From positions 1,798,001 through 1,862,000 of the forward strand of contig NC_009464.1 in assembly GCF_000063445.1 (NCBI RefSeq): DNA of 64,000 bases, written 5' to 3'. Shown here one piece after another: positions 20,083 through 38,124 of the stretch. Made by a program: the position numbers and the translations under genes. Under the pieces are notes generated by a model. That model was not told where the DNA came from, did no database searches, and saw only the letters and a program-made list of their open reading frames with translations. The stretch is from Methanocella arvoryzae MRE50 (GTDB lineage Archaea; Halobacteriota; Methanocellia; Methanocellales; Methanocellaceae). The first letter of the stretch is position 1; every line of letters begins with the position of its first letter.

Positions 20083-22347
20083 ATGCGGGGTATGAGCAGG
20101 GGAAACGATCATTCCACGGCAAAGCGATGGTGGCAGTCGATCAGGGTGGAGATCGTATTGCTCGTGCTGCTTATGACCCTTCCTACCATCTTGTTGGGCG
20201 TAGCTGGTACTCTCTATTATCAGGGCATACTAAAGCAGGATATCGAAGACAACCAGCTTGGCTCGGCTATGACGATTTCTGCTCTCGCCCCGGATTATCT
20301 GCAAAGCTCTCAGCTGTACCTGAAGAGCCTTGCTGACAGGATTTTGGTGATCAGGGCGATGGAGAATAATGACCTTGTTCTTTTACACTCCGTCGCCGTC
20401 TACGGGAATAACTCCACCAGGGTCAGGGGCATATATTTCACCGATAGCAACGGCAAGATTATCGAGGGTACTTCGGAGGTCGCCGGCCTTATCGGTGCTG
20501 ATTATTATAACCATTCTTACGTCAGCGGTGTAATAAAAAGCGGCCGCCCGGTCATCGGTGACGCGGAGCCGGGGTTCGATCAGAGGCCGATGGTGCCTGT
20601 AGGCGTACCTGTGGTCGATGCGAACGGCACTGTTCTGGGAGTGCTGGTGGGCATCGTCGACCTCGAAGAGTACTCCCAGATCATGGATGAGTCGCTGGCA
20701 GGTCGCGGACAGTGCGCCTATCTGGTGAACCGGACCGGCCACGTCATGGCGCATACTAACCGCAGCCATGCCTGGATGATGACTAACTTTTCCTCCGTGC
20801 CCGTGGTGGAGCGTGTGCTGGGGGGAGGCTCGGGCATCCTCGAGTACGAGAACCCCGTTGATCGGATGCTCATGATCGGAGCATACGCTCCCGTAGAGTC
20901 GTTTGGGTGGGGCGTGGTCGTGGCGACGCCCACGGAGATCGCTTACCGGCCTGTATGGGGCGCAGCGTGGATCATGGCCGCGATGATCGGGATCTTTTCC
21001 GTGGGGGCGGTCCTGCTCGGCATACTGGTCGGTAACCGCATTGCGTCTCCGATCGCCAGCATGTCGATGGCCATGAAAAGAGTGAAGGAGTCGGGCGACT
21101 ATCGCAGGCTCCTGCCGCTGGAGCGTAAGGATGAGGTCGGAGACCTCGCGCGGGCGTTCGACGACATGGTGTATACTATCAGGAGGAATATGGCGGAGCA
21201 GGATGCCAGCAGGCGGGAAATTGAAGAGCTGGCCCGCAGGCAGGAAGCGAGCCTGGCACAGCTCCGGGAGAGCGAAGCCCGGTTCCGCAGCTACTTCGAG
21301 TCTCCCCTGGTCGGGATTGCCATCTCGTCGCCTGATAAGCAGTGGCTGGACCTGAATGATAAGGCCTGTGAGATCCTGGGCTATTCCCGGGAGGAGCTTT
21401 TAAAGATGACCTGGGATATGCTGACCTATCCCGAAGACCTGTCCAAAAACGTCGAGCTTTTAGACAGGGTCATAGCCGGCGAGATCGATACCTACACACT
21501 CGAGAAGAGGTTCGTCCGTAAGGACGGGAGCCTGGTATCCACGTACCTCTCGGCAGGCTGCATACGCAACCCCGACCGATCAGTTAAATACATGCTCTCC
21601 ATCATCCAGGACATCACGGAAGAAAAGCGGGCCGAGGAGGCTTTGAAGGATGCGAAGGCCCAGGCGGAACTGTACCTCGACCTGATGGGCCACGACATCA
21701 ATAACATGAACCAGATCGCGATAGGGTTCCTGGAAATGGCTCTTAGTACGATGGATTTGAGCGACGACGAGCGGGAGTTGCTGGATAAGCCGCTGAGATC
21801 GATCAGGAACAGCTCGGAGCTGATCAGCAACGTGGGGAAGCTGCAGAAGGCCGCGGGCAATCAGGAGTTCAAAATGAAGCGTACCGACCTGTGCAGCGTG
21901 CTGGGAGAGGTGGTCCGGAAGAGCTCCGACCTCCCGGGCAGGCCGATCACCGTCAATTTCGAGTGCCCGCCCGGATCTTTTGTTATAGCCAACGAGCTGC
22001 TCGAGGACCTGTTCTCCAACCTCATCGGTAACGCCATCAAGCATTCGGACCCCGGTAAGCCGCTGACGATCGACGTCCGCGTGAGCCGGCAAAAGGAGGA
22101 TGATAAGGATTACTACGAGATCAGCATAGAGGATAACGGGCCTGGCATACCGGACGCGCTGAAGGCGAAGCTCTTCCGCCGGTTCGAGAGGGGCCAGACT
22201 AAGGCAAGCGGCAGAGGGCTCGGCCTGTACCTGGTGAAAACGCTGGCGAGGGAGTTCGGGGGCAAGGTACGGGTCGAGGACCGGGTGCCTGGAGATTCCG
22301 GGCAAGGGGCGAAGTTCATCGTCCTGCTGCCCGTACTGGCAGAATAA
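20083..22347 (+). CDS. Sensor histidine kinase: Cache-HAMP-PAS-HK
   Basis: Membrane sensor of 754 residues. The first helix is at about 24-46. An extracellular double-Cache sensor follows (about 50-285), then a second helix, HAMP (GNRIASPIASM, about 310-365), a PAS domain (about 400-515) and the kinase core. The phospho-acceptor His lies in LMGHDINNMNQ. The ATPase boxes are FSNLIGNAIKHSD (N), EDNGPGIPD (G1) and GRGLGLYLV (G2). Start ATG 20083, or 20092. It is the first of three related kinases in a row; no receiver domain is encoded nearby. The stimulus is unknown, but Cache domains usually bind small molecules. Confidence 0.9.
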   Translation: MRGMSRGNDHSTAKRWWQSIRVEIVLLVLLMTLPTILLGVAGTLYYQGILKQDIEDNQLGSAMTISALAPDYLQSSQLYLKSLADRILVIRAMENNDLVLLHSVAVYGNNSTRVRGIYFTDSNGKIIEGTSEVAGLIGADYYNHSYVSGVIKSGRPVIGDAEPGFDQRPMVPVGVPVVDANGTVLGVLVGIVDLEEYSQIMDESLAGRGQCAYLVNRTGHVMAHTNRSHAWMMTNFSSVPVVERVLGGGSGILEYENPVDRMLMIGAYAPVESFGWGVVVATPTEIAYRPVWGAAWIMAAMIGIFSVGAVLLGILVGNRIASPIASMSMAMKRVKESGDYRRLLPLERKDEVGDLARAFDDMVYTIRRNMAEQDASRREIEELARRQEASLAQLRESEARFRSYFESPLVGIAISSPDKQWLDLNDKACEILGYSREELLKMTWDMLTYPEDLSKNVELLDRVIAGEIDTYTLEKRFVRKDGSLVSTYLSAGCIRNPDRSVKYMLSIIQDITEEKRAEEALKDAKAQAELYLDLMGHDINNMNQIAIGFLEMALSTMDLSDDERELLDKPLRSIRNSSELISNVGKLQKAAGNQEFKMKRTDLCSVLGEVVRKSSDLPGRPITVNFECPPGSFVIANELLEDLFSNLIGNAIKHSDPGKPLTIDVRVSRQKEDDKDYYEISIEDNGPGIPDALKAKLFRRFERGQTKASGRGLGLYLVKTLAREFGGKVRVEDRVPGDSGQGAKFIVLLPVLAE

Positions 22348-22588
22348 GGGGTTGCTCCGCCAGCTTTCCTGCGCCATGCCAGAACCCACCAGTCCCCTGG
22401 CGGTCGCTATCCTGGCAGAGCCTTTAGCTGTGTACTGGTATCCCACGACGTAGAGCTCATGTGTGTCAGTTATCCGGGAAAACCATATACGATATGGGCG
22501 TATTATAAAATATTACAAAATCTTTGATATATTACCCTGTTGAGAAAAATTTTATATGATTAATATTAAGGCTTATCTGATCTGAGGC

Positions 22589-24709
22589 GTGGTCGTGAAT
22601 ACTTACATCCGGGAATCAGGTATCGAAGTGCTTGGCCGCATACCATGGGGTACGCATTTCTGCCTTTTCTACCAGACGAGGCAGGACCTGGCAAACGTTC
22701 TCATCCCCTATTTCCGGGCAGGCCTGGAGAACAACGAGTATTGCGTGTGGATCACGTCCGAGCCCCTCGAGGAGGCCGAGGCGAAGGCCCGGATGTTTGA
22801 GGCGGTGCCCGACTTCGGCAAGTATCTGGAGCGGGGGCAGATAGAGATCATCCCGTACGACCAGTGGTACGTGATCGACGGCGTCTTCGACTCCGGCAGG
22901 GTGCTCAGCGGCTGGGTGCAAAAGCTGCAGAGCGCGCTGTCCAGAGGTTTCAGCGGGCTGAGGCTGTCGGGGAACACGTTCTGGCTGGAAAAGTCCGGCT
23001 GGAATGACTTCCTCGATTACGAGCAGGCTATCAACGATACCATTGGCAAATACAGCATGATCGCGCTCTGTACGTATTCCCTCGACCGGTGCAGTGCCAA
23101 CGACATCCTGGACGTGGTGAGCACCCACCAGTTCGCCATGAGCAAGCGGGATGGCGAGTGGAAGCTCATCGAAAGCAAGGAGCAGAAGGAGGCCAGAAAA
23201 GCCTTGCAGGAGACCGAGATCAGGTTCCGGTCGCTGATCCAGAACTCGTTCGACATCATCCGCATCCTTGACCGGGAGGGCCGCATCATCTTCGACTCCC
23301 CCTCGTCAGAGCGTATCCTCGGCTATCCCCCGAGCTTTACCCTGGGCAGGTCGCCTCTGGACTTCATTCACCCGGACGACAGGCAACTTGTACAGAGTTC
23401 CCTGGGCGAAGTTTACCTGAACGTTAACCGGGGGACGCCGACGGAGTTCAGGATCAGGAAAGCCGACGGGGAATACCTGGACGTCGAATCTACCGGGGTC
23501 AACATGATCGGCGTGCCAGGGGTGGACGGCATCGTGATCACCACCCGGCCCATCACGGAACGAAAGAGGACGGAAAAAGAAAATGAGCAGCTGCTGGCCC
23601 GGCTGAGAGAGACGCAGGTCTACCTGGAGAGCCTGATCAACTACGCCAACGCCCCTATCATCGTGTGGAACCCCAGCTTCACGATCACCCGGTTCAACAG
23701 GGCTTTCGAGCGGATCTCCGGGTACATGGCAGACGAAGTCGTCGGTAAGCCCCTGAGCATCCTCTTCCCTGCCTCCAGCCGGTATGAGTCGCTGGAGCAG
23801 ATCAAGAATACTCTGAAGGGCGAGCACTGGGAATCAGTCGAGATACCGATCCAGCACAAGAACGGCAGCGTACGCATAGCCCTCTGGAATTCCGCCAACG
23901 TCTACGACGAGGATAGCCATACCCTGGTGGCGACGATCGCCCAGGGACAGGATATCACCCGCCGCAAAAAGGCTGAAAAAGAGCTGGAAGAGGCGAAGCT
24001 GCAGGCCGAGCTGTACCTGGACCTGATCGCCCACGACATCTCCAACATGCACCAGATCATGCTGATGCAGATAGAGCTGGCGGAAGAAATCCTGCAGAGC
24101 GATGGAAAGCTGGACGGCGACGACCGGGAGATACTCCAGTCCCTGTCCAGAACCATGGATAAGGCCGCCAGGCTGATCGATAATGTGAGGAAGCTGCAGA
24201 AGCTGAACACCGGCGACTATCGCCTGGAGGCGCTGGACCTCGCCGCGCTGATCCAGGACGTCCTGAACACTTACACGAACATACCGGGCAGGGACATCAC
24301 CCTGACCTACACTCCCTGCAAGGGGAGCATAGTACGGGCTAACCTGCTCCTGAGGGACGTGTTCCTGAACCTGATCGACAACGCGGTGAAGCACTCCTCC
24401 GGCCCCCTCGAGATAGGGATCGACCTGCACAAGATCAACCTGAACGGCCGCTCGTACTACCGGGTAGCAGTAGAGGACAATGGCAAGGGCATCCCCGACG
24501 AGAAGAAGGATGAGATCTTCCAGCGCTTCAAGCGCGGGCACACGAAAACAAAGGGCACTGGACTCGGCCTGTACCTCGTCAGGAGTCTGGTGGAAGGCTT
24601 CGGCGGCTACGTCGAAGTACAGAACAGGGTCCTGGGAGACTACACTAAAGGCTCCCGGTTTTTAGTGTACCTGCCGGCGATCGGCGAAGCACAGAGAGGT
24701 GGAGAATAG
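22589..24709 (+). CDS. Sensor histidine kinase: MEDS-PAS-PAS-HK
   Basis: Soluble sensor kinase of 706 residues. The N-terminal MEDS domain (about 10-185; HFCLFYQTRQDL, YFRAGLENNEYCVW, LRLSGNTFW) is found in methanogens and methylotrophs and is linked to sensing of one-carbon or hydrocarbon compounds. Two PAS domains follow (about 215-340 and 350-470). In the kinase core, His lies in LIAHDISNMHQ, with FLNLIDNAVKHS, EDNGKGIPD and GTGLGLYLV. No membrane helix. GTG starts at 22589 or 22595 are possible. The gene is a close kin of its two neighbours in the kinase core, implying tandem duplication with swapped sensor domains. Confidence 0.9.
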   Translation: MVVNTYIRESGIEVLGRIPWGTHFCLFYQTRQDLANVLIPYFRAGLENNEYCVWITSEPLEEAEAKARMFEAVPDFGKYLERGQIEIIPYDQWYVIDGVFDSGRVLSGWVQKLQSALSRGFSGLRLSGNTFWLEKSGWNDFLDYEQAINDTIGKYSMIALCTYSLDRCSANDILDVVSTHQFAMSKRDGEWKLIESKEQKEARKALQETEIRFRSLIQNSFDIIRILDREGRIIFDSPSSERILGYPPSFTLGRSPLDFIHPDDRQLVQSSLGEVYLNVNRGTPTEFRIRKADGEYLDVESTGVNMIGVPGVDGIVITTRPITERKRTEKENEQLLARLRETQVYLESLINYANAPIIVWNPSFTITRFNRAFERISGYMADEVVGKPLSILFPASSRYESLEQIKNTLKGEHWESVEIPIQHKNGSVRIALWNSANVYDEDSHTLVATIAQGQDITRRKKAEKELEEAKLQAELYLDLIAHDISNMHQIMLMQIELAEEILQSDGKLDGDDREILQSLSRTMDKAARLIDNVRKLQKLNTGDYRLEALDLAALIQDVLNTYTNIPGRDITLTYTPCKGSIVRANLLLRDVFLNLIDNAVKHSSGPLEIGIDLHKINLNGRSYYRVAVEDNGKGIPDEKKDEIFQRFKRGHTKTKGTGLGLYLVRSLVEGFGGYVEVQNRVLGDYTKGSRFLVYLPAIGEAQRGGE

Positions 24710-24844
24710 CTCACGAGCCTCACCCCTGAACAGCTCCGGGCTCCGGGAGCCCCCGCTCGCTTCATTAAGCTGCATTAGGCAGCATCATTATTTAAGCACG
24801 GCTGTCAGACATAATCATTATACCATGGCAAATTCGGATGTGAT

Positions 24845-26401
24845 ATGTCCCGACCTACATATACTGTGAAACCCGGGATAAGGCCAAAGCCCGGGAAAAT
24901 TGCCGGCTCAGTCCCAGATCAGCGTGTCGATCAGGAAGAGAGGCTTCGCCTGACTCAGTACTCCATGGACCACTTCCCGGAGTCGGCAATCTGGACGGAC
25001 ATGGAAGCCCGCATCCTCTACGTAAACGACGCGACGTGCGACATGCTGGGCTACACCCGGGATGAGCTGCTGGCCATGTCGGTGTCCGATATCGCCCCCA
25101 ACTACTCCCGCGACCGCTTCGCCGCTTTTATCCAATCCATCCAGGAGCGTAAAGCTCTCACTTTCGAATCCGAGCACGTCACGAAATCGGGCCGCAGAAT
25201 CCCAGTGGAGGTCACCACACACTACCAGAAATACGGAGCCCAGGAGTACATCATCTCCTTCTCCCGGGACATCTCCGGGAGGAAGCAAGTGGAGGACACC
25301 CTGCGAAAGAACGAGAAATTTTTGAATCACATCTTCAACAGCTTCCAGGACGGGATCGGCATCCTCGACAAGGACCTGAACATCGTCCGGGTAAACAGGA
25401 TCATGGAGAACTGGCACCCCTACATGATGCCTCTGCAGGGTAAAAAGTGCTACCACGCCTTCCATTGCAGGGACAAGCCCTGCGAGGTATGCCCCAGCCT
25501 TCGGGCGATGAAGCTCAAGACTATGCAAAGCGAGATTGTCCCCCTCCATGGCGAGCACGGGGAGCAGAAGGGCTGGCTCGAAATATACTCGTTCCCCCTG
25601 CTGGACGACCGGGGCGACCTGACGGGAGTCATCGAGCACGTCCGGGACATCACTGCGCGCAAGCGGGCGGAGGACGCCCTGGAAGAGACCAAGACCCGGG
25701 CCGAGCTGTACCTTGATCTGATGAGCCACGACATCAACAACATGAACCATGCAGGCATCGGCTTCCTGGAACTGCTGCTGGACTCCCCCCGGCTTGACCG
25801 GCAGGAGCGGATGCTGCTGCACAAGGCGATCGACTCTCTGGAAGGCAGCACCCGGATCATCCGGAACGTCCGGAAGCTCCAGATGGCGCAGTCCGGGGAG
25901 ATGCGCAGCCATAAAGTCGACGTCGGGCAGGTGCTGGACGAGGTGAAGTCCCACTACGCGGGCACGAGGGGCGAGGCCCTCGTCGACTATGATAGACCTG
26001 CAGGTTGCGAGGTGATGGCAAACGAGCTGCTGTTCGACGTCTTCTCCAACCTGGTGGGCAACGCGATCAAACACTCGGCTGAAAAGGGCAGGCCTGTGGT
26101 GAAAGTCAGGGCCGGGCGAAGCGCAGAAGGCGGCAGGGTTTACTGCAGGATAACCGTCGAGGACGACGGCCCCGGGGTACCGGACGAGATGAAGGACAAA
26201 ATCTTCGGCCGGCTCCGCAGGGGCGAGACGAAGGCAGGCGGCAAAGGCCTGGGGCTGTACCTGGTAAAATACCTGGTCGAGAGCTACGGCGGCAAGGTGT
26301 GGGTCGAAGACAGAGTCTCAGGCGATCACACCCGGGGCGCCAGGTTCGTGGTCATGATACCGGCCGCGGAGCCGGAGGCCGCACCGGACGTGCCCGGGTG
26401 A
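24845..26401 (+). CDS. Sensor histidine kinase: PAS-PAS-HK
   Basis: Soluble sensor kinase of 518 residues. PAS 1 (about 35-150) and PAS 2 (about 155-280) precede the core. PAS 2 has a cysteine cluster (KKCYHAFHCRDKPCEVCP) seen in PAS domains that may bind metal or respond to redox. The core carries His in LMSHDINNMNH, then FSNLVGNAIKHSA, EDDGPGVPD and GKGLGLYLV. Third member of the kinase array; two thioredoxin genes follow on the same strand, which makes a redox link attractive (inference). A TATA-like TTATTTAAG lies about 55 bases before the start. Confidence 0.88.
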   Translation: MSRPTYTVKPGIRPKPGKIAGSVPDQRVDQEERLRLTQYSMDHFPESAIWTDMEARILYVNDATCDMLGYTRDELLAMSVSDIAPNYSRDRFAAFIQSIQERKALTFESEHVTKSGRRIPVEVTTHYQKYGAQEYIISFSRDISGRKQVEDTLRKNEKFLNHIFNSFQDGIGILDKDLNIVRVNRIMENWHPYMMPLQGKKCYHAFHCRDKPCEVCPSLRAMKLKTMQSEIVPLHGEHGEQKGWLEIYSFPLLDDRGDLTGVIEHVRDITARKRAEDALEETKTRAELYLDLMSHDINNMNHAGIGFLELLLDSPRLDRQERMLLHKAIDSLEGSTRIIRNVRKLQMAQSGEMRSHKVDVGQVLDEVKSHYAGTRGEALVDYDRPAGCEVMANELLFDVFSNLVGNAIKHSAEKGRPVVKVRAGRSAEGGRVYCRITVEDDGPGVPDEMKDKIFGRLRRGETKAGGKGLGLYLVKYLVESYGGKVWVEDRVSGDHTRGARFVVMIPAAEPEAAPDVPG

Positions 26402-26521: not shown

Positions 26522-26857
26522 ATGGCCGAGACATCGCAGCTAGTAATGGATACCAGTGACGCCAGCTTTGACAGCGCTATCAAGAGCAGCCGGGTGGTCG
26601 TCGTCGACTGCTGGGCCCCATGGTGCGGGCCGTGCAGGATCCTGGCACCCACCATCGAGAGTCTCGCCAGGGACTACGACGGCCGGGTCAAGTTCTACAA
26701 GCTCAACACCGACGAAAACCCGCAGGTCGCGTCCCAGTTCCGCATCCGGAGCATACCCACGATCTTCATCTTCACCGACGGCAAGCTCGCCGACACCATC
26801 ATCGGCGCGGTACCCAGGCAGTACATCGAGGGCAAGCTGGAGCCGCTCCTCAAGTGA
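26522..26857 (+). CDS. Thioredoxin (first of tandem pair)
   Basis: Small disulfide reductant of 111 residues with the classic active site WAPWCGPCR (about residues 36-44) and the cis-proline segment RSIPTIFIF. It reduces protein disulfides in the cytoplasm, using electrons from a thioredoxin reductase not seen in this window. The neighbour at 26933 is a paralogue of the same length, beginning MAETS like this one, so the pair arose by tandem duplication. Confidence 0.95.
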   Translation: MAETSQLVMDTSDASFDSAIKSSRVVVVDCWAPWCGPCRILAPTIESLARDYDGRVKFYKLNTDENPQVASQFRIRSIPTIFIFTDGKLADTIIGAVPRQYIEGKLEPLLK

Positions 26858-26932
26858 ACGACGCTATAGCAACAGCCCGGCCATGCCCGAAACCATTTAA
26901 GCATTAAGCGCCTATAACCTAGGGGTAAACTT

Positions 26933-27274
26933 ATGGCAGAGACATCAAAATTCGTCACGGACCTCACTGACGCCACTTTCGACGACGCGGTCAAATCCAG
27001 CTCACTAGCAGTCATCGACTGCTGGGCCCCCTGGTGTGGGCCATGCAGAATGCTCGCTCCCACCATAGAGACGCTGGCACAGGAATACGAGGGCAAAGTC
27101 AAGTTCTACAAGCTCAACACCGACGAGAGCACCAGGGTAGTCCAGCAGTTCAAAATCTTCAGCATCCCCACCCTGCTCATCTTCGCCAAAGGCAAGCAAG
27201 TCGACACCATCGTCGGCGCCGTGCCCCGGCAGTACATCGAGTCGCGGCTGCAGCCGCTCCTGGAAAACCAGTAA
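26933..27274 (+). CDS. Thioredoxin (second of tandem pair)
   Basis: Thioredoxin of 113 residues with WAPWCGPCR and the cis-proline segment FSIPTLLIF. It shares the N-terminal MAETS, the KLNTDE segment and the PRQYIES/G C-terminus with the upstream copy. A separate promoter-like CCTATAACC and the ribosome site AGGGGT lie in the 75-base gap, so the two may be expressed separately. It converges with the topoisomerase VI-like operon. Confidence 0.95.
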   Translation: MAETSKFVTDLTDATFDDAVKSSSLAVIDCWAPWCGPCRMLAPTIETLAQEYEGKVKFYKLNTDESTRVVQQFKIFSIPTLLIFAKGKQVDTIVGAVPRQYIESRLQPLLENQ

Positions 27275-27317: not shown

Positions 27318-28604
27318 CTATACTCTTACTTTCAGCTTCTCCCGCAGCTTCGCCCGGAGGTAGCTCTTGTAGAACTCCTTCTTCTTCAGCGGAGACCCCG
27401 CGGCCGTACCTAACGCTTCCAGTTCGGTCTTTCTGGCGTGCCTGACGAACCACTCGTTCTCGCCTTTCCAGTAGTCGTCCTGCATGTACGGGAGAGACAG
27501 GTTGTTCTGCGCTCTCAAAAGATCGTTCTTGCTCAGGGGTTCCTGCACGCTCTTCCACACGTCTTTGAGCCACGTGTCCACGTCGGCGGACTCGATGCCG
27601 AGGAAGGCGGCCTTGGAGGCGTGGAGGCCGGATAAGTGCGCGGCGTTGATGCTGCCGCTCATGACGGACTTGGCGATCATGCCCGACCACGGGGAAAAGT
27701 CGGTGAGGACTCCTATGGGGATGCCCTTTTCTGACAATAGCTTGATCAGCGCCCTGCATCCTCTTGCCGGCTGGCCTCCGAGGTGGACGAGCCCGATGTT
27801 CAGTTCGTCCGCGACCTTCAGCTTCTTCAGGTCCATGAACACGCCGGTCTTCTCTATCGGAATGACAGCCTTGACGCCGTACTTCTTGATCTCCCACTGG
27901 CCGGCGAACCCGGTGATGCTCTGCTCCCTTTCCCCGCAGGTGAACTCGGTGCCCTCCTCGTCCACGATGGTGATGTCGCCGTAGATCAGCCCTTTGGGAT
28001 CGGCGATTACGTTGAGGTTTTCCCGGTTGAGGCGGATGATGCGCTCCAGGGTGTCGATCAGCCGGTCGCTTTCTCCCTGGCCGGTCAGGTCCATCCACGG
28101 GTACTTCTGGAACTGGTTCTTGAGCATGTAGTAGCAGTCCCTCTTCGTCGACACCGAGTTCGCCACTATGGTCTCGATGACGTGGTTGATCAGGAACTGC
28201 AGCTTCGCCAGCGACGCAGCCTGGTCGATGTTGGCCGTCGTCATGGAGAGCGTGTCCCCGGATGTGCTGTACCCCTCGACGTCGTCGTATTCGACCGAGG
28301 CCCGATCGACCTTCAGCGCCTTGAACGTGTACGGAAGGGCGTTCTCGGCCCGGATCACGGCGCCCAGGCAATACGCCGAGAGCACCTTGATAGACCGCTC
28401 CTGATCCCTGGTGAGGCGGCGCTCTTTCAGGATGTCGTGGGCCATGGCCATGGTGGAGCCGTCGCTGGTCCGGGAGGCGAGCATCTTCACGAAGTCCTGG
28501 CGCTTTGCGTCGTGAGCAATCTCGAAAATAGCCTCGAACTCGTCCGCGAGGGCGGCGTCCTCGATGGCCTCGTACAGCTTATCGTTCTTCCTTCTCGCTG
28601 CCAC
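27318..28604 (-). CDS. Divergent topoisomerase VI A / Spo11-like subunit
   Basis: Homologue of the DNA-cutting A subunit of topoisomerase VI (and Spo11), 428 residues. The winged-helix catalytic tyrosine is present in RDCYYML (about 156). The Toprim domain has the glutamate in PIEKTGVFMDL, then VHLGGQPARG and TDFSPWSGMIAKS. Standard enzymes, as I recall them, have TDGDPW, giving a metal-binding DxD; here it is DxS. The N-terminal ~90 residues do not resemble the usual extension. The GTG at 28604 is chosen: GGAGGTGA lies six bases upstream inside the end of the B gene. It forms an operon with the B-like subunit; no gyrase genes are near. It may be a repurposed paralogue. Confidence 0.85.
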   Translation of the reverse strand: MAARRKNDKLYEAIEDAALADEFEAIFEIAHDAKRQDFVKMLASRTSDGSTMAMAHDILKERRLTRDQERSIKVLSAYCLGAVIRAENALPYTFKALKVDRASVEYDDVEGYSTSGDTLSMTTANIDQAASLAKLQFLINHVIETIVANSVSTKRDCYYMLKNQFQKYPWMDLTGQGESDRLIDTLERIIRLNRENLNVIADPKGLIYGDITIVDEEGTEFTCGEREQSITGFAGQWEIKKYGVKAVIPIEKTGVFMDLKKLKVADELNIGLVHLGGQPARGCRALIKLLSEKGIPIGVLTDFSPWSGMIAKSVMSGSINAAHLSGLHASKAAFLGIESADVDTWLKDVWKSVQEPLSKNDLLRAQNNLSLPYMQDDYWKGENEWFVRHARKTELEALGTAAGSPLKKKEFYKSYLRAKLREKLKVRV

Positions 28605-28606
28605 GC

Positions 28607-30277
28607 TCAGTCACCTCCCGCCGCTGCCACTGCCCGCCTGCTTTCAGGGGCCCGTCTCTCCGGCTTCTCCTCCCGGAAGACGTCCAGACCGTACTCCTCC
28701 TCTACCTCGGAGACGCAGTTGTCGAAGCCGAAGGCAGCGGCATACTCGGGGCCCGCGACCTTCGCCCCCGCGTACCGGTTGAGCTGTCTCAGGAGCAGAG
28801 AGTGAATGATCGCCTTCCGCTTGCCTTTGACCGCCTCTTCCTCGGACTTCTTGATCCGGCGGATATGCTTCGAGATCTTGCGACCACACTCCTGGATCGC
28901 GAGGCGGATTTCCTCGTAGTACTCGTCCACGAACTTGATCGCCTCCTTGCTCTCGCTCGTGTAGGGGATGTTCACGCCCGCCACGTGTACGAATAAGTGA
29001 CTGCGAGTCTCCGGGGCGATCTCGTACCGGGCCAGCCCCGCGTCCCTCGCCGCTTTCAGCGTCACGTCGCCCGACTCCGAGAAGAGGAGGGGCACCCGGT
29101 TGACGAACCGGTGAATGTAGACGCCGGTGACCGGGTCGATGGAGGACTCCCCTGTGCCGCCGAGCTCGGCGCCGCAGCCGTAGGCGATGATCACCTCCAC
29201 CAGGAATGGCTGGCCTCTCATCGCCCGGGGCTTTCTCGTGACCGCCTCGATAAAGGCGGGCTGTAGCCTGCTCACCACGCCCTGCACCAGGGTGGCTTCG
29301 CCTACTGGCGACAGGCACTCGGTGGAAGGCGGGAGCGTCTGAGCACCGCTCATAGCTTCGGCGAGCGCCATCAGCTCCTCCTTGCAGAGGTCTGCGGGCT
29401 TCTTCCTCACGTCTAGCCGGTCCTTGCAGCCCGCGATGATCTGCTTCGAGACGTCGGACCGGACCCGGTCGAACTCGCCCTTCAGGAAATCGTTGAGCGT
29501 ACTATATCTTGTCCTGGCGGCGAGCCGCTTCAGCAGGTCGTAGTCAGCCCCCGAGGGGTGGGGCTTCGTCTCCACCGGGATGGCCGGCAGCTCCTCGGTG
29601 CGCCTGGGCACTTCGAGCCGGTCGGCCTCGTTCACGCCATCATAGTGCAGGCTCAGATGCGGGTTGATGGCCGCGGTCAGCTCGATGTACTCCATGATGC
29701 GGGCGGAGAACTGGGCCTCGAGGATCACGGAGATTTCGACGCCCTTCCAGCCTTCGGCCTTCTCCTCGTGCGAGTCGTGCACCTTCGCCGAGTTCCGGTC
29801 CACGTCCACCGAAAGCTCGAAGACGTGGGACTTCTTCCCGTTCGTCGACGTCTTCACGATCGCGTGCTCGCCCGTCTTGATCTGCGATATGAGAACGACC
29901 GCGGACACGCCGATGCCCTGTTGCCCTCTGGACTGCCGGCGGACGCCGAACTTGCTGCCGTACAGCAGCTTGCCGAACACGAGAGGGACATTCTTAGGGA
30001 GGATGCCGGGCCCGTTGTCCCGGACCGTCAATTTGTAGCGCTTGAGCCGGCCCTTATCGTCCAGGCTCTTCAGGTCTATCCAGACCTCGGGGAGGATGCC
30101 TGCCGATTCGCAGGCGTCGAGTGAGTTGGTGAGAATCTCGTGGATGGACATGGGGATCATCTTCACCGAGCTCTCGAAGCCGACTAAATGAGGGTTAGTG
30201 GCGATGAACTCGCTGAAGGAGATCTCCTTCATTTCCTTTGCAAGTTCCTTTGCCGTCTTACAGTTTTTAGGTGCCAT
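28607..30277 (-). CDS. Divergent topoisomerase VI B-like subunit (GHKL ATPase)
   Basis: GHKL-type ATPase subunit of 556 residues. The Bergerat fold is intact: IHEILTNSLDA (N box), VRDNGPGI (G1) and RGQQGIGVSA. The transducer region contains SPPSTECLSP-like PPSTECLSPVGE and the family motif NIPYTSESKEAI. Two elements of canonical TopoVI-B seem to be missing: the KGRR loop (here AQFSARIMEYI) and the WKxY motif (here GLARYEI), both known to contact or sense DNA. The C-terminal Ig-like domain of methanogen enzymes is also absent. Stop and next start are two bases apart. It probably pairs with the A-like subunit; its reaction is uncertain. Confidence 0.85.
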   Translation of the reverse strand: MAPKNCKTAKELAKEMKEISFSEFIATNPHLVGFESSVKMIPMSIHEILTNSLDACESAGILPEVWIDLKSLDDKGRLKRYKLTVRDNGPGILPKNVPLVFGKLLYGSKFGVRRQSRGQQGIGVSAVVLISQIKTGEHAIVKTSTNGKKSHVFELSVDVDRNSAKVHDSHEEKAEGWKGVEISVILEAQFSARIMEYIELTAAINPHLSLHYDGVNEADRLEVPRRTEELPAIPVETKPHPSGADYDLLKRLAARTRYSTLNDFLKGEFDRVRSDVSKQIIAGCKDRLDVRKKPADLCKEELMALAEAMSGAQTLPPSTECLSPVGEATLVQGVVSRLQPAFIEAVTRKPRAMRGQPFLVEVIIAYGCGAELGGTGESSIDPVTGVYIHRFVNRVPLLFSESGDVTLKAARDAGLARYEIAPETRSHLFVHVAGVNIPYTSESKEAIKFVDEYYEEIRLAIQECGRKISKHIRRIKKSEEEAVKGKRKAIIHSLLLRQLNRYAGAKVAGPEYAAAFGFDNCVSEVEEEYGLDVFREEKPERRAPESRRAVAAAGGD

Positions 30278-30421: not shown

Positions 30422-31642
30422 TCACTGTGCCAGCCAGTCCAGCTTCTCTCTTCTTGAAACTTTCTTATCGGCAGCGACCCGACCCGCGCCCAGGTAGCGG
30501 GAGAACTGGCGGAAGCAGGCGAGCAGGCCGGACCGCAGCTCCTCAGATTGTTCGATCTCAGGCTCCCACCACCAGTTCTTGATCAGCAGGGCTCCGTCCT
30601 CGCCCCTGCCCGGCTCGAACCGGGCGACGAAACGGTCGCCGTACAGCACCGGGAGCACATAGTACCCGTAGCGGCGCTCCGCGGCGGGCTTGTACACTTC
30701 CCACAGGTACTCGAAGCCGAAAAGCTCCTTCACGAGTTTGCGGTCCCAGATCAGGTTGTCCAGCGGAGCAAGAACCGACGCCCGGGCCTGAGGGCTTCTG
30801 CGAGACCTCAGCGCCCTCTCCATGCATGCCATGTCCTCGTTTCGGAGGTAGAAAGGATGGCTGATACCCTCCACCCATACCTCTACGATCTTTTCCTGCC
30901 GGAGCAGCCGCCCGATCGCATCGTTCCTGTCCTTGCTCTTGATGTCGTGGATGCCCAGCCACGCGTCTCCCGCACGGTTCCAGAGCAGCCCGATGCTGCC
31001 TATCCGCCGGTGAACGTACCAGTCGTAATATTGCTTCTCCGTCCGGTTCCGGTCGGGCGCGCTCAGGATCTCGTCCGAAAGGTGGCGGCGTGCGAAGTCG
31101 TAGGCCCTGCGGGTGCCGACTTTATGGTGGACGATGAGCTCTCCCCAGAAGTACATGCTCTCCAGCGCGGCCCTCGATACTCTTGTCGGGCCCCAGGGCC
31201 AGTCGATCCTGTCGTCGAAAGCCAGATCGGCAGAGGTCAGCGGCCCTTTTTCCTCGATCTCTCTTCTGATCAGGTCCAGGTAAGGGGTAATCGGGTGGGA
31301 CTTGCCGCCCAGTCTCTTCCTCGCCCTCTCCCGGGCACGCCGGAAGTACGACCAGTCCTCCGCAGGATAGATACACATGTTCTTATCCCACCCGTCGATC
31401 AAAGTGCGGTCCCGGTAAAGCAGCTCCTGCAGCATGGAAGAGCGAAAATCCTTCACCCGGGCCTGCAGCACCAGCTCGTGGTTCGGGCCCGCGACGTTCA
31501 AAGGATCGAACTGGATGCAGTTGACTCGCCTGATGTACGCCGATACGCCTGCCTTGCCTTCCAGCTCTCCCGGCGGCCACAGGCCCTGGTGGGCGAGCAA
31601 AAAGCTACGGGCCTGCTGTCTGGTGATCTCGAGTCTCTCCAT
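30422..31642 (-). CDS. YcaQ/AlkX-type winged-helix DNA glycosylase
   Basis: A 406-residue member of the YcaQ branch of the HTH_42/AlkZ family; bacterial YcaQ unhooks interstrand crosslinks and removes N7-alkylguanine. Seen: the N-terminal winged helix with CIQFDPLNVAG, the motif LAPLDNLIWDRKLVKELF (about 285-302) that marks this branch, and RYGYYVLPVLYGDRFV. Length is typical. It is the second HTH_42 member in this window, the other being of the AlkZ-like branch at 8313-9467. It stands alone between the topoisomerase-like operon and the exporter genes. Confidence 0.88.
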   Translation of the reverse strand: MERLEITRQQARSFLLAHQGLWPPGELEGKAGVSAYIRRVNCIQFDPLNVAGPNHELVLQARVKDFRSSMLQELLYRDRTLIDGWDKNMCIYPAEDWSYFRRARERARKRLGGKSHPITPYLDLIRREIEEKGPLTSADLAFDDRIDWPWGPTRVSRAALESMYFWGELIVHHKVGTRRAYDFARRHLSDEILSAPDRNRTEKQYYDWYVHRRIGSIGLLWNRAGDAWLGIHDIKSKDRNDAIGRLLRQEKIVEVWVEGISHPFYLRNEDMACMERALRSRRSPQARASVLAPLDNLIWDRKLVKELFGFEYLWEVYKPAAERRYGYYVLPVLYGDRFVARFEPGRGEDGALLIKNWWWEPEIEQSEELRSGLLACFRQFSRYLGAGRVAADKKVSRREKLDWLAQ

Positions 31643-31780
31643 CCATTACGCACTCCGGCTGCCCATGGTACAAATAGTAGCTGGGAGCTTCTCTGGCAGC
31701 CGGGCTATTAAGCGTGATGTAAGCTGGCTGAAAATATTGATGCTCCCCCGCCTGCTGGCAGGGCAGCATTTGAAAGTCCT

Positions 31781-32518
31781 TTAACTTATCTTATGCATCT
31801 TGCGATCGAAGAGCTTCAACAATACCAGGATCAGCACCGCATGGAAGACGGCCGCTCCCAGCACGTATGGCCAGAAGTTCGCCCCTCCGGTCGAGCCCTC
31901 CCAGAACGCCCTGACCGGCCAGAAGGTCGGGATGACGTAGAAGACGAACTCCCACTTCGGGTCGATCAGGTAGGCGAGCAGGGGAATCGACAGGACCGTG
32001 CCCAGCATCTTCTGGATGGCGAAGCCCTGTACCTTGTTCTCCGCAAATACGCCGAAGACCAGCGCAAACAGGGGCGCCTCCAGAGAGGCGACCAGCGCAA
32101 CCACCACCAGCGTGGTGAGGTCGACGCCGGTCAGCCCGGCTATTGGGCAGGCGATCAGCGTGGTGACGAAGCTCACGATCACCGGCGCCGAGATCCTGTA
32201 CGCCAGGTACTGCGCCATGGAGACCGGCGTCACCTTCAGCGCGGCCAGCATGCCCTCGTCCCGCTCGTCCAGCAGCAGAAACCCGATGCAGACCCCGAAG
32301 AACATGGGTATCATGACTATCAGCAGGCCCATGAGCATGGGGTAGAACGGCACCAGGTCGAACATCGGGGCAGCCCAGGCCGCGATTACCGGTATCAGGT
32401 ACCGGTATGCCAGTGCGATCACGAAGGGTATCACTATCATCCACTTCAGCAGCGGATCCCGGATCACGTTCAGCAGGTCGCCGGAGCCGAAAGAGCGGAG
32501 CATTTTCAGGTAGTCCAT
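31781..32518 (-). CDS. ABC-2 type transporter permease
   Basis: Integral membrane subunit of an ABC exporter, 245 residues, six predicted helices. The charged loop GFLLLDERDEGMLAALKVTPVS is the usual ABC-2 coupling segment (split here by length). Third gene of an ATPase-permease-permease operon transcribed leftward; only a one-base gap separates it from the preceding permease gene. It probably forms a heterodimer with that permease. The cargo is unknown; ABC-2 exporters of this size often move drugs or lipids. Confidence 0.85.
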   Translation of the reverse strand: MDYLKMLRSFGSGDLLNVIRDPLLKWMIVIPFVIALAYRYLIPVIAAWAAPMFDLVPFYPMLMGLLIVMIPMFFGVCIGFLLLDERDEGMLAALKVTPVSMAQYLAYRISAPVIVSFVTTLIACPIAGLTGVDLTTLVVVALVASLEAPLFALVFGVFAENKVQGFAIQKMLGTVLSIPLLAYLIDPKWEFVFYVIPTFWPVRAFWEGSTGGANFWPYVLGAAVFHAVLILVLLKLFDRKMHKIS

Positions 32519-32519
32519 C

Positions 32520-33227
32520 TCAGTTACCTCCCTTCCTGTTGATGATGTGTCGATCGAACGCCCTCTTCGAGAGGACGAACGCTACAGCAATCACTATTAG
32601 TGAATACAGCACGCCGTAGGCGAGCTGCCACGACTCTACCGGCACAAATGCGGCCTTCATGACCAGCAGCGGCGCCTGCATCGGGTGTAAGTATACTAAA
32701 GGCGTCTCGAAGATCTGCAGGTAGTCGACCAGCGGCAGCATCAGGGCGACTATCACGAAAGCAGCGGGCATGAGGTACTCGCTGATCGACTTGAACCGGG
32801 ACACCATCACGAACCCCAGCAGGACGTAGATCACCGCTGCCAGTATAGTGCCGGCGGCCAGCAGCAGCACGTTGTAGCCCGTGCCAAAGATGGCCAGGAC
32901 GATCGCCATGTTCTCGATGAAGGCCAGCGCAGTCAGCGTAAGTACCTTGGAGCCCAGGTATTCCTCCACCCGGAGGGGGCTGACGATCAGCGCCTGCAGG
33001 ACTCCCTCGCCCTTCTCGAACAGCACCATTCCCCCGATGAAGAAGAAGGTGCCGATCATCAGGTTGCCGAAGACGAACAGAGGGACGAAAACCGGGGACC
33101 CGTACTGGCTGAACTGGCTGAGCATGGCGATGAAGACGATCATCGTGAACAGCGAGGCAACGATAAAGCCGTACCGGACCTGCTGCCTGAAGTCTACCAG
33201 CAGCGTGGGGACCAGCCTGTTGATCAT
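32520..33227 (-). CDS. ABC-2 type transporter permease
   Basis: Second membrane subunit of the exporter, 235 residues with six predicted helices. It has the ABC-2 coupling loop FEKGEGVLQALIVSPLRVEE. Its start overlaps the end of the ATPase gene by four bases, so it is translated together with it. It is paralogous to the following permease in layout but not in detail. Confidence 0.85.
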   Translation of the reverse strand: MINRLVPTLLVDFRQQVRYGFIVASLFTMIVFIAMLSQFSQYGSPVFVPLFVFGNLMIGTFFFIGGMVLFEKGEGVLQALIVSPLRVEEYLGSKVLTLTALAFIENMAIVLAIFGTGYNVLLLAAGTILAAVIYVLLGFVMVSRFKSISEYLMPAAFVIVALMLPLVDYLQIFETPLVYLHPMQAPLLVMKAAFVPVESWQLAYGVLYSLIVIAVAFVLSKRAFDRHIINRKGGN

Positions 33228-34078
33228 GCGAGACTCCTTCCTGTAGCCTTGATAAAGATGTCCTCCAGCGTCGCCTCTTCAGTGTGGATGGTCTGGACGC
33301 TATTCGAGCGTAGAAGTGCCAGGAACTCGGCATTATCCCCCAGGTCCTTAAGGTTGAATTCCCGGGTCTCTACGTGAGAGTTCTCGCTGTACTCGACCCT
33401 TACGACGCGCCTGCCGTGCTGCAGCTTCAGCTGCCGGGGCGAGTCGATGAGCTTGATCTCCCCGTCCACGATGAAGGCGACCCGGTCGCACAGCTCGTCC
33501 GCGAGGGCCATGTTGTGCGTGGTGAGGAAGATTGTCTTGCCCTCCGTCTTCTTCCGCAGGATGATGTCCCTGATGATCCGGCTATTGACAGGGTCCAGGC
33601 CCGAGGTCGGCTCGTCCAAAAACAGCAGGTCCGGCTTGTTCAGCAGCGCCCGAATGAAGCCCAGCCTCACTTTCATTCCCTTGGAGAACTGGGCCACGCG
33701 GTTGTTGGCGTCGGTCTCCAGGCCCACCAGCTTCAGCAGCTCCATGGGGTCTTCGGTCTCCCCGCTGTAGAGCGAGCGGAAATAGTTTAAATTTTCGAGG
33801 GCCGTCAGCTTGAGATAGTGGTTGGGGATCTCGAAGGAGACCCCGACCTTCTCGTAGAACGAGGACTTCCAGGAGCTGACGTCCCTGCCCATGACCGCTA
33901 CCTTTCCCCTGTACCCCGTGAGCTGGCCGGTCAGGATCTTCTGCGTAGTGCTCTTCCCGGCGCCACTGGGGCCCAGGAACCCGAAGATTTCCCCGGGCTT
34001 CACTTCGAAGGAGATGTTCCTGACGGCCTCTTTCTTGCCGCCCGGATAAGTGAATGTAAGGTCTTTGACTTCTATCAT
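33224..34078 (-). CDS. ABC transporter ATP-binding protein
   Basis: ATPase of the exporter, 284 residues from the ATG at 34078. Walker A GPSGAGKST, signature QFSKGMKVRLGF in place of the LSGGQ core, Walker B LLFLDEPTSGLDP and the H-loop FLTTHNM are all present. A C-terminal extension of about 70 residues is typical of drug/lipid exporters. GAGG nine bases before supports this ATG over one 12 codons earlier. The gene is divergent from a TetR gene with palindromic operators between them. Confidence 0.93.
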   Translation of the reverse strand: MIEVKDLTFTYPGGKKEAVRNISFEVKPGEIFGFLGPSGAGKSTTQKILTGQLTGYRGKVAVMGRDVSSWKSSFYEKVGVSFEIPNHYLKLTALENLNYFRSLYSGETEDPMELLKLVGLETDANNRVAQFSKGMKVRLGFIRALLNKPDLLFLDEPTSGLDPVNSRIIRDIILRKKTEGKTIFLTTHNMALADELCDRVAFIVDGEIKLIDSPRQLKLQHGRRVVRVEYSENSHVETREFNLKDLGDNAEFLALLRSNSVQTIHTEEATLEDIFIKATGRSLA

Positions 34079-34119
34079 AGCACTCGCCTCATATGGTAAA
34101 GTGAATGCGCTCACAAAAA

Positions 34120-34134
34120 GTGAACGACGTTCAC
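34120..34134. promoter_or_regulatory. TetR operator candidate 1
   Basis: The perfect palindrome GTGAAC-GAC-GTTCAC lies between the divergent exporter and TetR genes, 42 bases before the ATPase start. Symmetric half-sites with a three-base centre are usual for TetR-family dimers. A weaker relative, GTGAATGCGCTCAC, lies at 34101-34114. Confidence 0.6.
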
Positions 34135-34173
34135 TACAAAAAAGGATAAGTAAATAAGGTATTAATAAAGTTA

Positions 34174-34188
34174 TTGAACAAGGTTCAC
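34174..34188. promoter_or_regulatory. TetR operator candidate 2
   Basis: TTGAAC-AAG-GTTCAC has the same half-sites and the same three-base spacing as candidate 1, with one mismatch. It lies 17 bases before the first TetR ATG, where it could block transcription of that gene. The two sites are 54 bases apart, centre to centre. Confidence 0.58.
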
Positions 34189-34204
34189 CAGGTCCTATAA
34201 AAAG

Positions 34205-34840
34205 ATGGCGGAGGCGGAGGATGGCATGCCGGAGAAAAAGACTGTGCGTAACAAGGCTGAGAAGATACGCTCTATCCTCAGCGCCAGTAAAACGCTCATA
34301 GAAACTGTCGGCTACCAGGATGTCACCATCCGGGACATCGCCCGGGAAGCCGGGGTCAGCGTAGGGCTGATCTACAAATACTTCCCCGGGGGCAAGCCTG
34401 AAATTATCAGGGAGATCGGCATGGGCCTCATCACCGAGATGACCGGGGCGGGCAAGCCCGGCAGCGTCGACTTCGACGACTTCCCCGGCTTTCTGCGCGT
34501 GTTCTTCAGCAGGACCGTCGAGTACTACCGAAATAACAAACGCTTCATCGCCGCTCTCATGGTGGCCACTCTCCAGGACCGGAAGATTTTCGAGGGGTTC
34601 GAGGAGGCCGGCCTGGAAAACCTGGACGGCCTCGTCCTGTTCCTGGGCAACTTCCGGGGAATCGACCTCTCCGACAAGGGCGAGCCCCGACTATTCATGG
34701 CCAAATGGTCCGACATAGTCAAGAGCATCATGCTGCATCACGCGGTCTACCCCACGCCCTTCGACTCCGATGAGGAGATAGTGGAGCTATTGGTGAAAAT
34801 ATCGCTGATGATGTGGGGCTATAAAAGTATGGAGAAATGA
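34205..34840 (+). CDS. TetR-family regulator of the adjacent exporter
   Basis: Repressor-type regulator of 211 residues (or 204 from the ATG at 34226, which has GGAGG six bases upstream and is the better start). The N-terminal helix-turn-helix reads VTIRDIAREAGVSVGLIYKYFP, here noted in parts: DIAREAGVSVG and LIYKYFPG. The helical C-terminal half probably binds an inducer. Divergent from the ABC exporter operon, with two matching palindromes between, so it likely represses both (inference). Confidence 0.88.
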   Translation: MAEAEDGMPEKKTVRNKAEKIRSILSASKTLIETVGYQDVTIRDIAREAGVSVGLIYKYFPGGKPEIIREIGMGLITEMTGAGKPGSVDFDDFPGFLRVFFSRTVEYYRNNKRFIAALMVATLQDRKIFEGFEEAGLENLDGLVLFLGNFRGIDLSDKGEPRLFMAKWSDIVKSIMLHHAVYPTPFDSDEEIVELLVKISLMMWGYKSMEK

Positions 34841-34861
34841 CCCTCGGACGTGCAGATCTTT

Positions 34862-36085
34862 TTACTCTGCCAGCGGCCTGACGTTCTTCAGGTATTCACG
34901 GAAAAGCGGATTGTAGAGACGATACCTGCCCCTGGCCACCTTGACGACCAGCTCCTTTTTAACAAGCCGGTCCAATAGCTTGGTCACACTGCTGCCTTTC
35001 AGCTCGGACGGGGTGATTTCGCTCTGCTGAGCCAGGGCCATCCGGAATAGCAACTCTTGTTCTGCATCCGAGGCTCTGTCCAGATCATCGTGGAACTTAA
35101 GCCTTGCGAAGTGCTCGATGAGTGCCGGGCAGATTCCCTTGAATTCCATGATCGTCAGGCGGCCTTCGTTCATCTCGTCGAGCACGTCCCGCATGGTCAC
35201 AGTCAAGAAATATGGGTGGCCATCGGTGATCTGGTGAATTTTCTCGACGACGGGATCATCGATCGTGAGATCAATGCCTTCGGCTTCGAGGGGCTTTTCG
35301 ATTAGCTGGCGGGTCCCTTCTATGTCAAATGGTTCCAGATCAAACCGCTCGAATAGTCTGGTAAACGGCTCGGCTTTATCCCTCATCTCCGGGTAAAGGT
35401 TGGCCGGCCCGGTGATGATGAACATGAACTGGGCGCCAGATGCCGACAACCCCTGCATTACCGTCCGCAGGTCGTACAGCAGCTCGGCGTTTTCCCGGGA
35501 GGCGAGGGCATAGTGAATGTCGTCCAGCATAACGACGGCAAGCTGGATCCCGCCGGCATGAAGCTTTTCCCAGAACTTGATCATGGTCTCCTTGAAATTT
35601 ATACCTCTGGGCGGAGAGTGTTCTCTGCGCTCGATCTCCGGGGTCATAGATACCTTTGAGATTTTCCAGTTCTCGAAGACGTTCAGCTCCTCTCTGATAA
35701 AGTCTACGACTCGCTGCGGTAGCTCCACAGTGCTCTCGTACTCTCGAAATATGCTCTCCATGAGGTATACGAAGAACGTATCTGCATCAGAGCAGCAGTT
35801 AGGGCTTAATGGTACGCATGCAGAAAAGATCCTGGCACCTTCACTCTCGTTTTTAATCATATCCTTGAACTTCAGGAGCGTAGACGTCTTACCTACTCCC
35901 CAGCCCCCCATGACAGCGATGTTAACCGGGCGAGTGACGCCTCCCGACCGTGATACCGCCATTACGCTGCGATGGAAGGTCAGCAGGAGCTTTTCCCGGT
36001 TAGCATAGTACTTCGGGTTGGTCGGCCCCTGGGCATTGAAAGGATTAACGAAGCGCATGGTTTTAGCTTTTGTCATTTTTGTCAT
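34862..36085 (-). CDS. AAA+ ATPase of ORC/Cdc6-like or STAND type
   Basis: P-loop ATPase of about 407 residues. Walker A VMGGWGVGKTS and Walker B AVVMLDDIH are clear. Sensor-like ITGPANL and the motif FDLEPFDIEGTRQLIEKPL resemble archaeal ATPases of the ORC/Cdc6-like superfamily. A C-terminal winged helix follows (SSVTKLLDRLVKKELVVK). The start is ATG 36085, or GTG 36094, which overlaps the stop of the upstream zinc-finger gene as GTGA. Its first codons (MTIMTKMTK) are encoded by a 23-nt repeat that recurs twice upstream. The role is unknown: replication, signalling or defence are all possible. Confidence 0.72.
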   Translation of the reverse strand: MTKMTKAKTMRFVNPFNAQGPTNPKYYANREKLLLTFHRSVMAVSRSGGVTRPVNIAVMGGWGVGKTSTLLKFKDMIKNESEGARIFSACVPLSPNCCSDADTFFVYLMESIFREYESTVELPQRVVDFIREELNVFENWKISKVSMTPEIERREHSPPRGINFKETMIKFWEKLHAGGIQLAVVMLDDIHYALASRENAELLYDLRTVMQGLSASGAQFMFIITGPANLYPEMRDKAEPFTRLFERFDLEPFDIEGTRQLIEKPLEAEGIDLTIDDPVVEKIHQITDGHPYFLTVTMRDVLDEMNEGRLTIMEFKGICPALIEHFARLKFHDDLDRASDAEQELLFRMALAQQSEITPSELKGSSVTKLLDRLVKKELVVKVARGRYRLYNPLFREYLKNVRPLAE

Positions 36086-36294
36086 GATTGTCACTTTCTC
36101 CTGCCGACACTGAACCACAATGCTTCCGCTTTTCCCTCGCACCGTTTGTGGATAAGCCTGCCATTATAGTACATCCCTGTCCCGGGGTACACTTGCCTGC
36201 CACATATTGCACAAGTCTTTCCAGGCATCTTATACTACCACTGTGTCATTTTTGTCATGATTGTCATTTCTTGTCATTTTTGTCATGATTGTCA
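36071..36294. repeat. Three identical 23-nt repeats around a zinc finger-ATPase operon
   Basis: Copies at 36071-36093, 36244-36266 and 36272-36294, on the plus strand starting TGTCATTTTTGTCATGATTG and ending TCA. Each holds three TTGTCA units spaced nine or so bases apart. Two copies lie upstream of the operon; the third covers the ATPase start codon. They resemble iterons or protein-binding arrays. Confidence 0.85.
36091..36228 (-). CDS. 45-residue zinc-finger protein
   Basis: Short gene read directly from the sequence. The product has a CAIC knuckle near the N-terminus, a Gly/Tyr-rich middle (YPGTGMYYNGRL) and HKRC, giving a CxxC...HxxxC treble-clef-like or HNH-like zinc site. It ends basic (VGRRK). 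ATG at 36228; stop overlaps a GTG start of the AAA+ ATPase gene, so the two are coupled. Such small fingers often bind nucleic acid or tether a partner. No family name is offered. Confidence 0.65.
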   Translation of the reverse strand: MPGKTCAICGRQVYPGTGMYYNGRLIHKRCEGKAEALWFSVGRRK

Positions 36295-36360
36295 TTTTGG
36301 ATATGCAAGCATATACTTTACTATAGTCCGTGACGGAACTATTCGAGCCTGACCTGCACA

Positions 36361-37140: not shown

Positions 37141-37157
37141 CGGATGACACCTCTCCG

Positions 37158-37577
37158 CTAAATGCCGTTGGGGAACCACAGTCCGTCGACGAGGGACTGG
37201 TTATCAGGGTTCATGACCAGCCGGATCTTCAAGGTGCCCTTCTCAAACTGCGCATCGTAGAAGAAGTTATTGTACCCGTTGATCACGCTGCCCTGCGGAG
37301 CAGGCTTCGAGGTGTAGTTGCCATACTTGTCGTGGATCTGGTTCCTGATGTCCATGAAGCTGCTCTCGTTTACGCCTTTCTTCATCGGGTCGGTCAGGTA
37401 CGCCGAGAACTGGCCGTAGTCCCCGGTGTTGAACGACTGGAACACCGCCTCGGCGGTGGGGTCCGCAGCGTCGAAAGCCTCCTGCGGCGGAGCCTGGTTG
37501 AAGATGCAGCCGGAGAGCAGAACGCAGAGGGCGACGGTAAGTATTGTCATGCCCACGAGAACAAAACGGTTTGACAT
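37158..37577 (-). CDS. DUF3887-like lipoprotein
   Basis: Secreted protein of about 139 residues. The N-terminus has a positively charged start, a hydrophobic stretch and LLSGC, a lipobox-like end, so it is probably attached to the membrane by a lipid. The globular part (AEAVFQSFNTGDYGQFSAYL, shown to 20 residues) resembles DUF3887, a family of cystatin/NTF2-like folds. The ATG at 37577 or 37583 can serve. The gene precedes yhfC on the same strand, and I recall the two families occurring together elsewhere. Confidence 0.75.
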   Translation of the reverse strand: MSNRFVLVGMTILTVALCVLLSGCIFNQAPPQEAFDAADPTAEAVFQSFNTGDYGQFSAYLTDPMKKGVNESSFMDIRNQIHDKYGNYTSKPAPQGSVINGYNNFFYDAQFEKGTLKIRLVMNPDNQSLVDGLWFPNGI

Positions 37578-37640
37578 AAGCATATTTTAATATCGGCCGA
37601 TATTTAAGAATATTGAGTGCTGGCAGACACACTAGTTTAG

Positions 37641-37880: not shown

Positions 37881-37907
37881 CCGGCTATTGTTCTAATCTG
37901 GTGTTTG

Positions 37908-38056: not shown

Positions 38057-38124
38057 TATGCAGGATCAATGGCCAATTATCGGCGCGTCGATCTTCGCCT
38101 GACAATTAAAGAAGAACCAAATAA

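Follow-up and report, generated by a model that had tools for sequence, protein, structure and literature searches.

A 64,000-nucleotide stretch of the Methanocella arvoryzae MRE50 chromosome (the window) carries, in addition to the housekeeping topoisomerase VI (topo VI) encoded elsewhere in the genome, a divergent topo VI pair that is real, conserved in the Methanocellales and apparently undescribed. Our preferred explanation, in which we place about even confidence, is that the pair forms a Methanocellales-specific, neofunctionalised holoenzyme of the topo VI type (predicted A2B2), which would be ATP-gated and DNA-breaking and would not serve as a bulk relaxase or decatenase. Spo11, which initiates recombination in germ cells, is descended from a topo VI, and the pair could offer a directly testable prokaryotic parallel to that transition; as a chromosomal, vertically inherited second topo VI that has lost strand-passage elements it represents a natural separation-of-function variant. 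Archaea are described as having one type IIB topoisomerase each, topo VI, with a few adding Topo VIII or Mini-A, mainly on mobile elements (PMC8185306); in contrast, the extra type IIB enzyme reported here is chromosomal and is found beside the housekeeping enzyme in methanogens. Among open-licence papers on Methanocella and topo VI we found no study or description of these genes, and Methanocella is absent from the main text of a survey of topoisomerase distribution (PMC11302465). The NCBIfam record NF003335 (PRK04342.1-4, “DNA topoisomerase VI subunit A”) holds the group of the window A subunit under this generic name, and gives neither a function nor a distinction from topo VI.

The original prediction of a topo VI-like pair at 27318-30277 was correct in its open reading frames and coordinates, and both subunits were identified by Pfam and NCBIfam. 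The genes form a two-gene operon on the minus strand, B followed by A with 2 bp between them, in a genome that is a single contig of 3,179,916 bp and 99.99% complete. The locus contains the following genes:

28607-30277, minus strand: B-like subunit gene (top6B paralogue), 556 amino acids, with GHKL ATPase, H2TH region, transducer and stalk, and without an Ig-like C-terminal domain
27318-28604, minus strand: A-like subunit gene (top6A paralogue), 428 amino acids, GTG start, with winged helix and Toprim
26522-27274, plus strand: two thioredoxin genes, convergent with A, a synteny marker separate from the B-A operon
30422-38794: AlkZ-like glycosylase, ABC transporter, TetR-like and AAA-ATPase genes, between B and its usual glycosyltransferase neighbour

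The product of the A gene has the winged helix with the catalytic Tyr and the Toprim fold of a topo VI A subunit, and was matched by TOP6A-Spo11_Toprim (3e-24) and TP6A_N (7e-12) in Pfam and by NF003335 (557 bits, model positions 1-373) in NCBIfam; Foldseek with the predicted structure confirmed the Top6A/Spo11 match and gave nothing beyond it. The B product combines a GHKL ATPase with a Topo-VIb transducer, as seen from the Pfam matches Topo-VIb_trans (4e-49) and HATPase_c (1e-9) and from NCBIfam TIGR01052 (407.7 bits against a cut-off of 380.7). When compared with the topo VI enzymes of M. mazei and S. shibatae, to which it is ~28% (A) and ~32% (B) identical, the paralogue has the same domain sets, the same B-A order, the ATP site and switch Lys, the catalytic Tyr, the metal-A Glu and Asp and the clasp Arg and Glu. 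It differs in that the second Asp of the DxD motif is Ser, in the loss of KGRR, WKxY and R236/R240, in an added helical N-terminus on A and in the missing Ig-like domain, the last being a difference that the housekeeping B of the host shares.

At 3.10 Mb the same genome encodes another topo VI pair, its hallmarks intact, and the objection that there might be no other topo VI therefore fails. Neither are the DxS motif and the missing loops normal for the housekeeping enzyme of the genus, as its A subunit reads TDMDPWG and its B subunit has WKHY together with a basic RGK loop. The housekeeping A belongs to NF003333 as opposed to NF003335 for the window A, and the two pairs are 25% (A) and 33% (B) identical. 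The absence of adjacent gyrase genes, which had been used as an argument for a repurposed enzyme, turned out to be uninformative, since gyrA stands alone at 2.66 Mb, distant from the window pair and from the housekeeping topo VI as well.

Residue numbers below follow M. mazei topo VI unless residues of the window are named. The elements of the A subunit are:

28128-28142, minus strand: catalytic motif RDCYY, with R155 corresponding to M. mazei R102 (clasp Arg) and Y159 to Y106; kept
27852-27854, minus strand: Toprim Glu E251, corresponding to M. mazei E202, a ligand of metal site A; kept
27693-27701, minus strand: Toprim D302-F-S304, corresponding to D254-x-D256; first Asp kept, second changed to Ser
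27423-27425, minus strand: clasp Glu E394, corresponding to M. mazei E342; kept
28311-28604, minus strand: N-terminal extension, residues 1-98, present in 4/4 orthologues and predicted to be all-helical

The alignment shows that R102, Y106, E202, D254 and E342 are conserved in all four paralogue A orthologues, in agreement with the claim that A keeps the catalytic Tyr (RDCYYM) and the Toprim Glu. It is also clear that TDFSPW has taken the place of the DxD motif, as had been predicted, with Ser at D256 in the four orthologues and Asp in the other 46 A sequences aligned (46/46); of the acidic triad E...DxD of topo VI, window A accordingly has the Glu and the first Asp. Two Toprim arginines that are invariant in 46/46 other A sequences are lost in 4/4 orthologues (R236 to Ala and R240 to Leu in window A). 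The latch residues V57/W58 are changed in window A and in the housekeeping A too. The N-terminal part of A, described originally as ~90 unrelated residues, gave no match to Pfam or PDB over its ~98 residues. AlphaFold predicts this extension as helical at a pLDDT of ~67-86, the rest of the model being poor; the models were built on four sequences only and have a mean pLDDT of 53 and 55.

For the B subunit the relevant sites are:

30017-30139, minus strand: ATP site, from E47 and N51 (N box) to D87 (G1 box), window residues; kept
29699-29713, minus strand: site of the deleted KGRR crossing-sensor loop, now QFSAR, residues 189-193
29024-29035, minus strand: position of the lost WKxY motif, now LARY, residues 415-418
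28820-28831, minus strand: 4-residue insertion in the transducer stalk helix, around residues 483-486, in 4/4 orthologues

The prediction for B, an ATP site still in place but no KGRR loop and no WKxY motif, holds for all four orthologues: E44, N48, D80, the switch Lys K435 and the stalk R457 are conserved, the KGRR loop (sensor of the T-segment) is deleted and WKxY (W[K/R]xY) has become L(A/S/G)RY. The Trp of WKxY is invariant in 43/43 other B sequences, those of S. shibatae and of the housekeeping copy included. The KGRR loops of S. shibatae and the haloarchaea were also found to be shorter or different in the alignment. The Ig-like C-terminal domain (PF18000) is indeed missing from window B; since it is missing from the housekeeping B of the same genome as well, it does not count as a specific loss of the paralogue.

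The paralogue and the housekeeping pair occur together in all four genomes of the family that were examined (three genera; the same four make up the sample of the order and of the class), and NF003335 scored above its cut-off in only those four of 393 genomes drawn across the phylum. A contig scan with window A gave only one relative (Methanocella sp. PtaU1.Bin125), and, being insensitive enough to miss two orthologues of ~80% identity, it says nothing on absence beyond the phylum. The viral contigs searched held no relatives of window A, phage records gave no match to the pair, and plasmid records matched only with a haloarchaeal B of the housekeeping type. Between species the paralogue is 78-87% (A) and 69-81% (B) identical, compared with 80-87% and 74-87% for the housekeeping subunits, and its pairwise dN/dS is ~0.08-0.24 where dS is unsaturated. 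On the A side the pair is flanked by a thioredoxin gene in 4/4 genomes. On the B side, the three genomes whose flanking sequence is long enough share one glycosyltransferase gene together with its neighbour. In the present genome alone, B is parted from the glycosyltransferase by an extra stretch of ~8.5 kb (AlkZ-like, ABC transporter, AAA ATPase and others); the two relatives with sufficient flanking sequence do not have it at this position. Judged from this gene order, the locus is an ancestral chromosomal locus of the Methanocellales; and from one syntenic locus, 69-87% identity and low dN/dS we conclude, as far as sequence comparison can tell, that the pair is under purifying selection with its losses fixed, and that both a relic and a mobile insertion can be dismissed. 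Together with the complete hallmark pair elsewhere and the presence of both pairs in 4/4 genomes, this gives good support to the original idea of a repurposed paralogue.

The AlkZ-like glycosylase gene beside B was considered as a functional partner and rejected, as it sits in the stretch found in this genome only. The thioredoxin gene at 26522-27274 is a tandem duplicate here and a single-copy orthologue in the three relatives. Farther along, at 20083-26401, there are three successive PAS-type sensor histidine kinase genes whose products are alike in the C-terminal kinase domain, apparently a tandem expansion.

With regard to the origin of the two pairs, the top6A genes of all other Halobacteriota share 55-95% identity among themselves, but the housekeeping top6A of the Methanocellales (L035:10110-11210, ~3.106 Mb) reaches just ~29% with them; the best relative found for it, at 315 bits, is on contig L129, which looks bacterial. 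The Methanocellales housekeeping A clusters in the A tree with S. shibatae and this contig, away from the rest of the phylum, and a Halobacteriota clade containing it is rejected by the AU test (p=0.0003). The housekeeping B adjoining this non-Halobacteriota-type A is of the Halobacteriota type (~52% identity). It is likely, as far as the trees indicate, that the housekeeping A is itself non-native, of crenarchaeal or bacterial type, and was brought in by replacement of the A subunit inside the operon. Window A is placed on the M. jannaschii/Halobacteriota side (support 98/97) on a very long branch, and a clade of the paralogue and the housekeeping copies gave AU values of p=0.14 (A) and 0.26 (B) in trees with limited outgroup sampling from other phyla. 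A history where a foreign A became the housekeeping subunit, and the lineage it displaced was put to a new use, is plausible but unproven. A recent duplication of the housekeeping pair is disfavoured by the low identity between the pairs, while a joint clade is allowed by the AU tests.

The functional consequences of the losses may be judged from work on related enzymes. In M. mazei topo VI, mutation of KGRR or of Stalk/WKxY abolishes relaxation (PMC5922973), and topo VI relaxation requires an intact stalk, with the latch being of importance too (PMC13040014); since both KGRR and WKxY are gone from the paralogue, normal strand passage is unlikely. In yeast Spo11 the Glu and the first Asp are essential for breaks, while D290, the equivalent of D256, is considered to act solely at metal site B, which is non-catalytic, D290N having little effect and D290A causing a partial drop in breaks (PMC11746154; PMC11922746). 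As the break-essential residues are kept and the D256 equivalent is dispensable in yeast Spo11, cutting is still plausible, and probably the paralogue is still gated by ATP and able to cleave, but passes strands poorly. ATP would then drive dimerisation of B and A would use metal site A to make a covalent 5' break, while DNA crossing would no longer be sensed, resulting in a poor coupling to strand passage. The outcome might be ATP-gated breakage, possibly with resealing, directed to DNA in a particular state or by a partner that the N-terminal extension binds.

On the same residues the original suggestion of controlled cleavage or recombination stands as a possibility; the step from being able to cut to making programmed breaks is one that we infer. 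That the pair makes deliberate, ATP-gated, protein-linked double-strand breaks (e.g. for starting recombination or for chromosome rearrangement), having evolved independently of eukaryotic Spo11 and being kept beside the housekeeping topo VI throughout the Methanocellales, we put forward tentatively and regard as unlikely. Several points could count against our preferred explanation. The R236/R240 residues, invariant in all other A subunits, could be needed for cleavage; the M. mazei Stalk/WKxY mutants, which have lost the DNA-stimulated ATPase and bind DNA poorly (PMC5922973), could by analogy argue against efficient cleavage; and as the stalk R457 and much of the basic character of the H2TH region remain, and S. 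shibatae topo VI lacks a literal KGRR as well, strand passage might survive in an altered form.

A reading that we find possible but less likely is that the pair is still a topoisomerase, specialised as an ATP-dependent type IIB enzyme whose contacts with the G- and T-segments have been rewired (e.g. a relaxase for particular conditions or a decatenase). The full domain set and conserved operon order, the retained ATP site, switch Lys, stalk Arg and cleavage residues, and the natural variation of the KGRR loop in S. shibatae and the haloarchaea all agree with it, and the basic stalk with its insertion could stand in for the lost contacts; it has to account, however, for the disappearance in all four orthologues of two elements that M. 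mazei topo VI, to judge from mutants, needs for relaxation, one of them containing a Trp that no other B in the alignment lacks. Another case, an ATP-gated DNA clamp or scaffold in which B would shut around DNA and A would grip the duplex without breaking it, draws on the loss of the metal-B Asp, R236 and R240 from Toprim. We take the invariance of Tyr, R102, Glu, the first Asp and the clasp Glu in 4/4 orthologues, a preservation not expected for a clamp, as evidence that this non-cutting role, which had been among the original suggestions, is decidedly unlikely.

It is most improbable that the pair is a decaying relic of a native topo VI, redundant once the current housekeeping A had been acquired. 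The non-Halobacteriota housekeeping A and the best placement of window A on the M. jannaschii/Halobacteriota side make displacement a plausible origin, but displacement may explain the origin and not the maintenance, and the clade of the paralogue with the housekeeping copies is itself unrejected (p=0.14 for A). The genes are intact in four species with a dN/dS of ~0.1-0.2 and an A subunit conserved about as well as that of the housekeeping enzyme, and on these grounds a pseudogene was rejected. A role as defence nuclease in phage or plasmid interference had also been suggested, and related Toprim dimers are in fact used in the MksG/Wadjet and Gabija defence systems (PMC13040014); here, PADLOC gave no match, no defence island or defence genes alongside the pair are conserved between the genomes, and the locus is one and the same in all members, leaving this role highly doubtful.

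The enzyme that we favour, ATP-gated and breaking DNA, may be compared with the Spo11 core complex and Top6BL. All are derived from topo VI, the residues essential for breaks (catalytic Tyr, metal-A Glu and Asp) are kept, the second DxD Asp is lost in the paralogue and tolerably lost in Spo11, and the partner B is altered in strand-passage elements. In contrast to the degenerate ATP site of yeast and animal Top6BL, that of the paralogue B looks intact, and its GHKL and transducer regions are complete; moreover, the paralogue is archaeal, and programmed breaks are here put forward as a proposal. Topo VIII and Mini-A resemble the paralogue as additional type IIB enzymes in some archaea, but they are mostly homodimeric and borne on mobile elements (PMC8185306), whereas the paralogue has two subunits and a conserved chromosomal locus. 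A mobile or plasmid-borne Topo VIII/Mini-A is ruled out by the separate A and B genes and by the synteny in all members.

Other topo VI genes encountered in the searches deserve mention. The viral contig IMGVR_UViG_3300028558_000016 (482 kb; L130:4977-7803) has adjacent top6B and top6A genes and apparently belongs to a huge phage that encodes a topo VI itself. A Top6B of 1064 amino acids (L060:242-3436, genome G020, family f10) has an intein-like insertion of ~420 residues in the ATP lid, just before SRGQQG. Finally, the top6A matches in both genomes of family f15 (G025:C3:237556-238560; G081:C56) contain one in-frame TGA, possibly a recoded stop.
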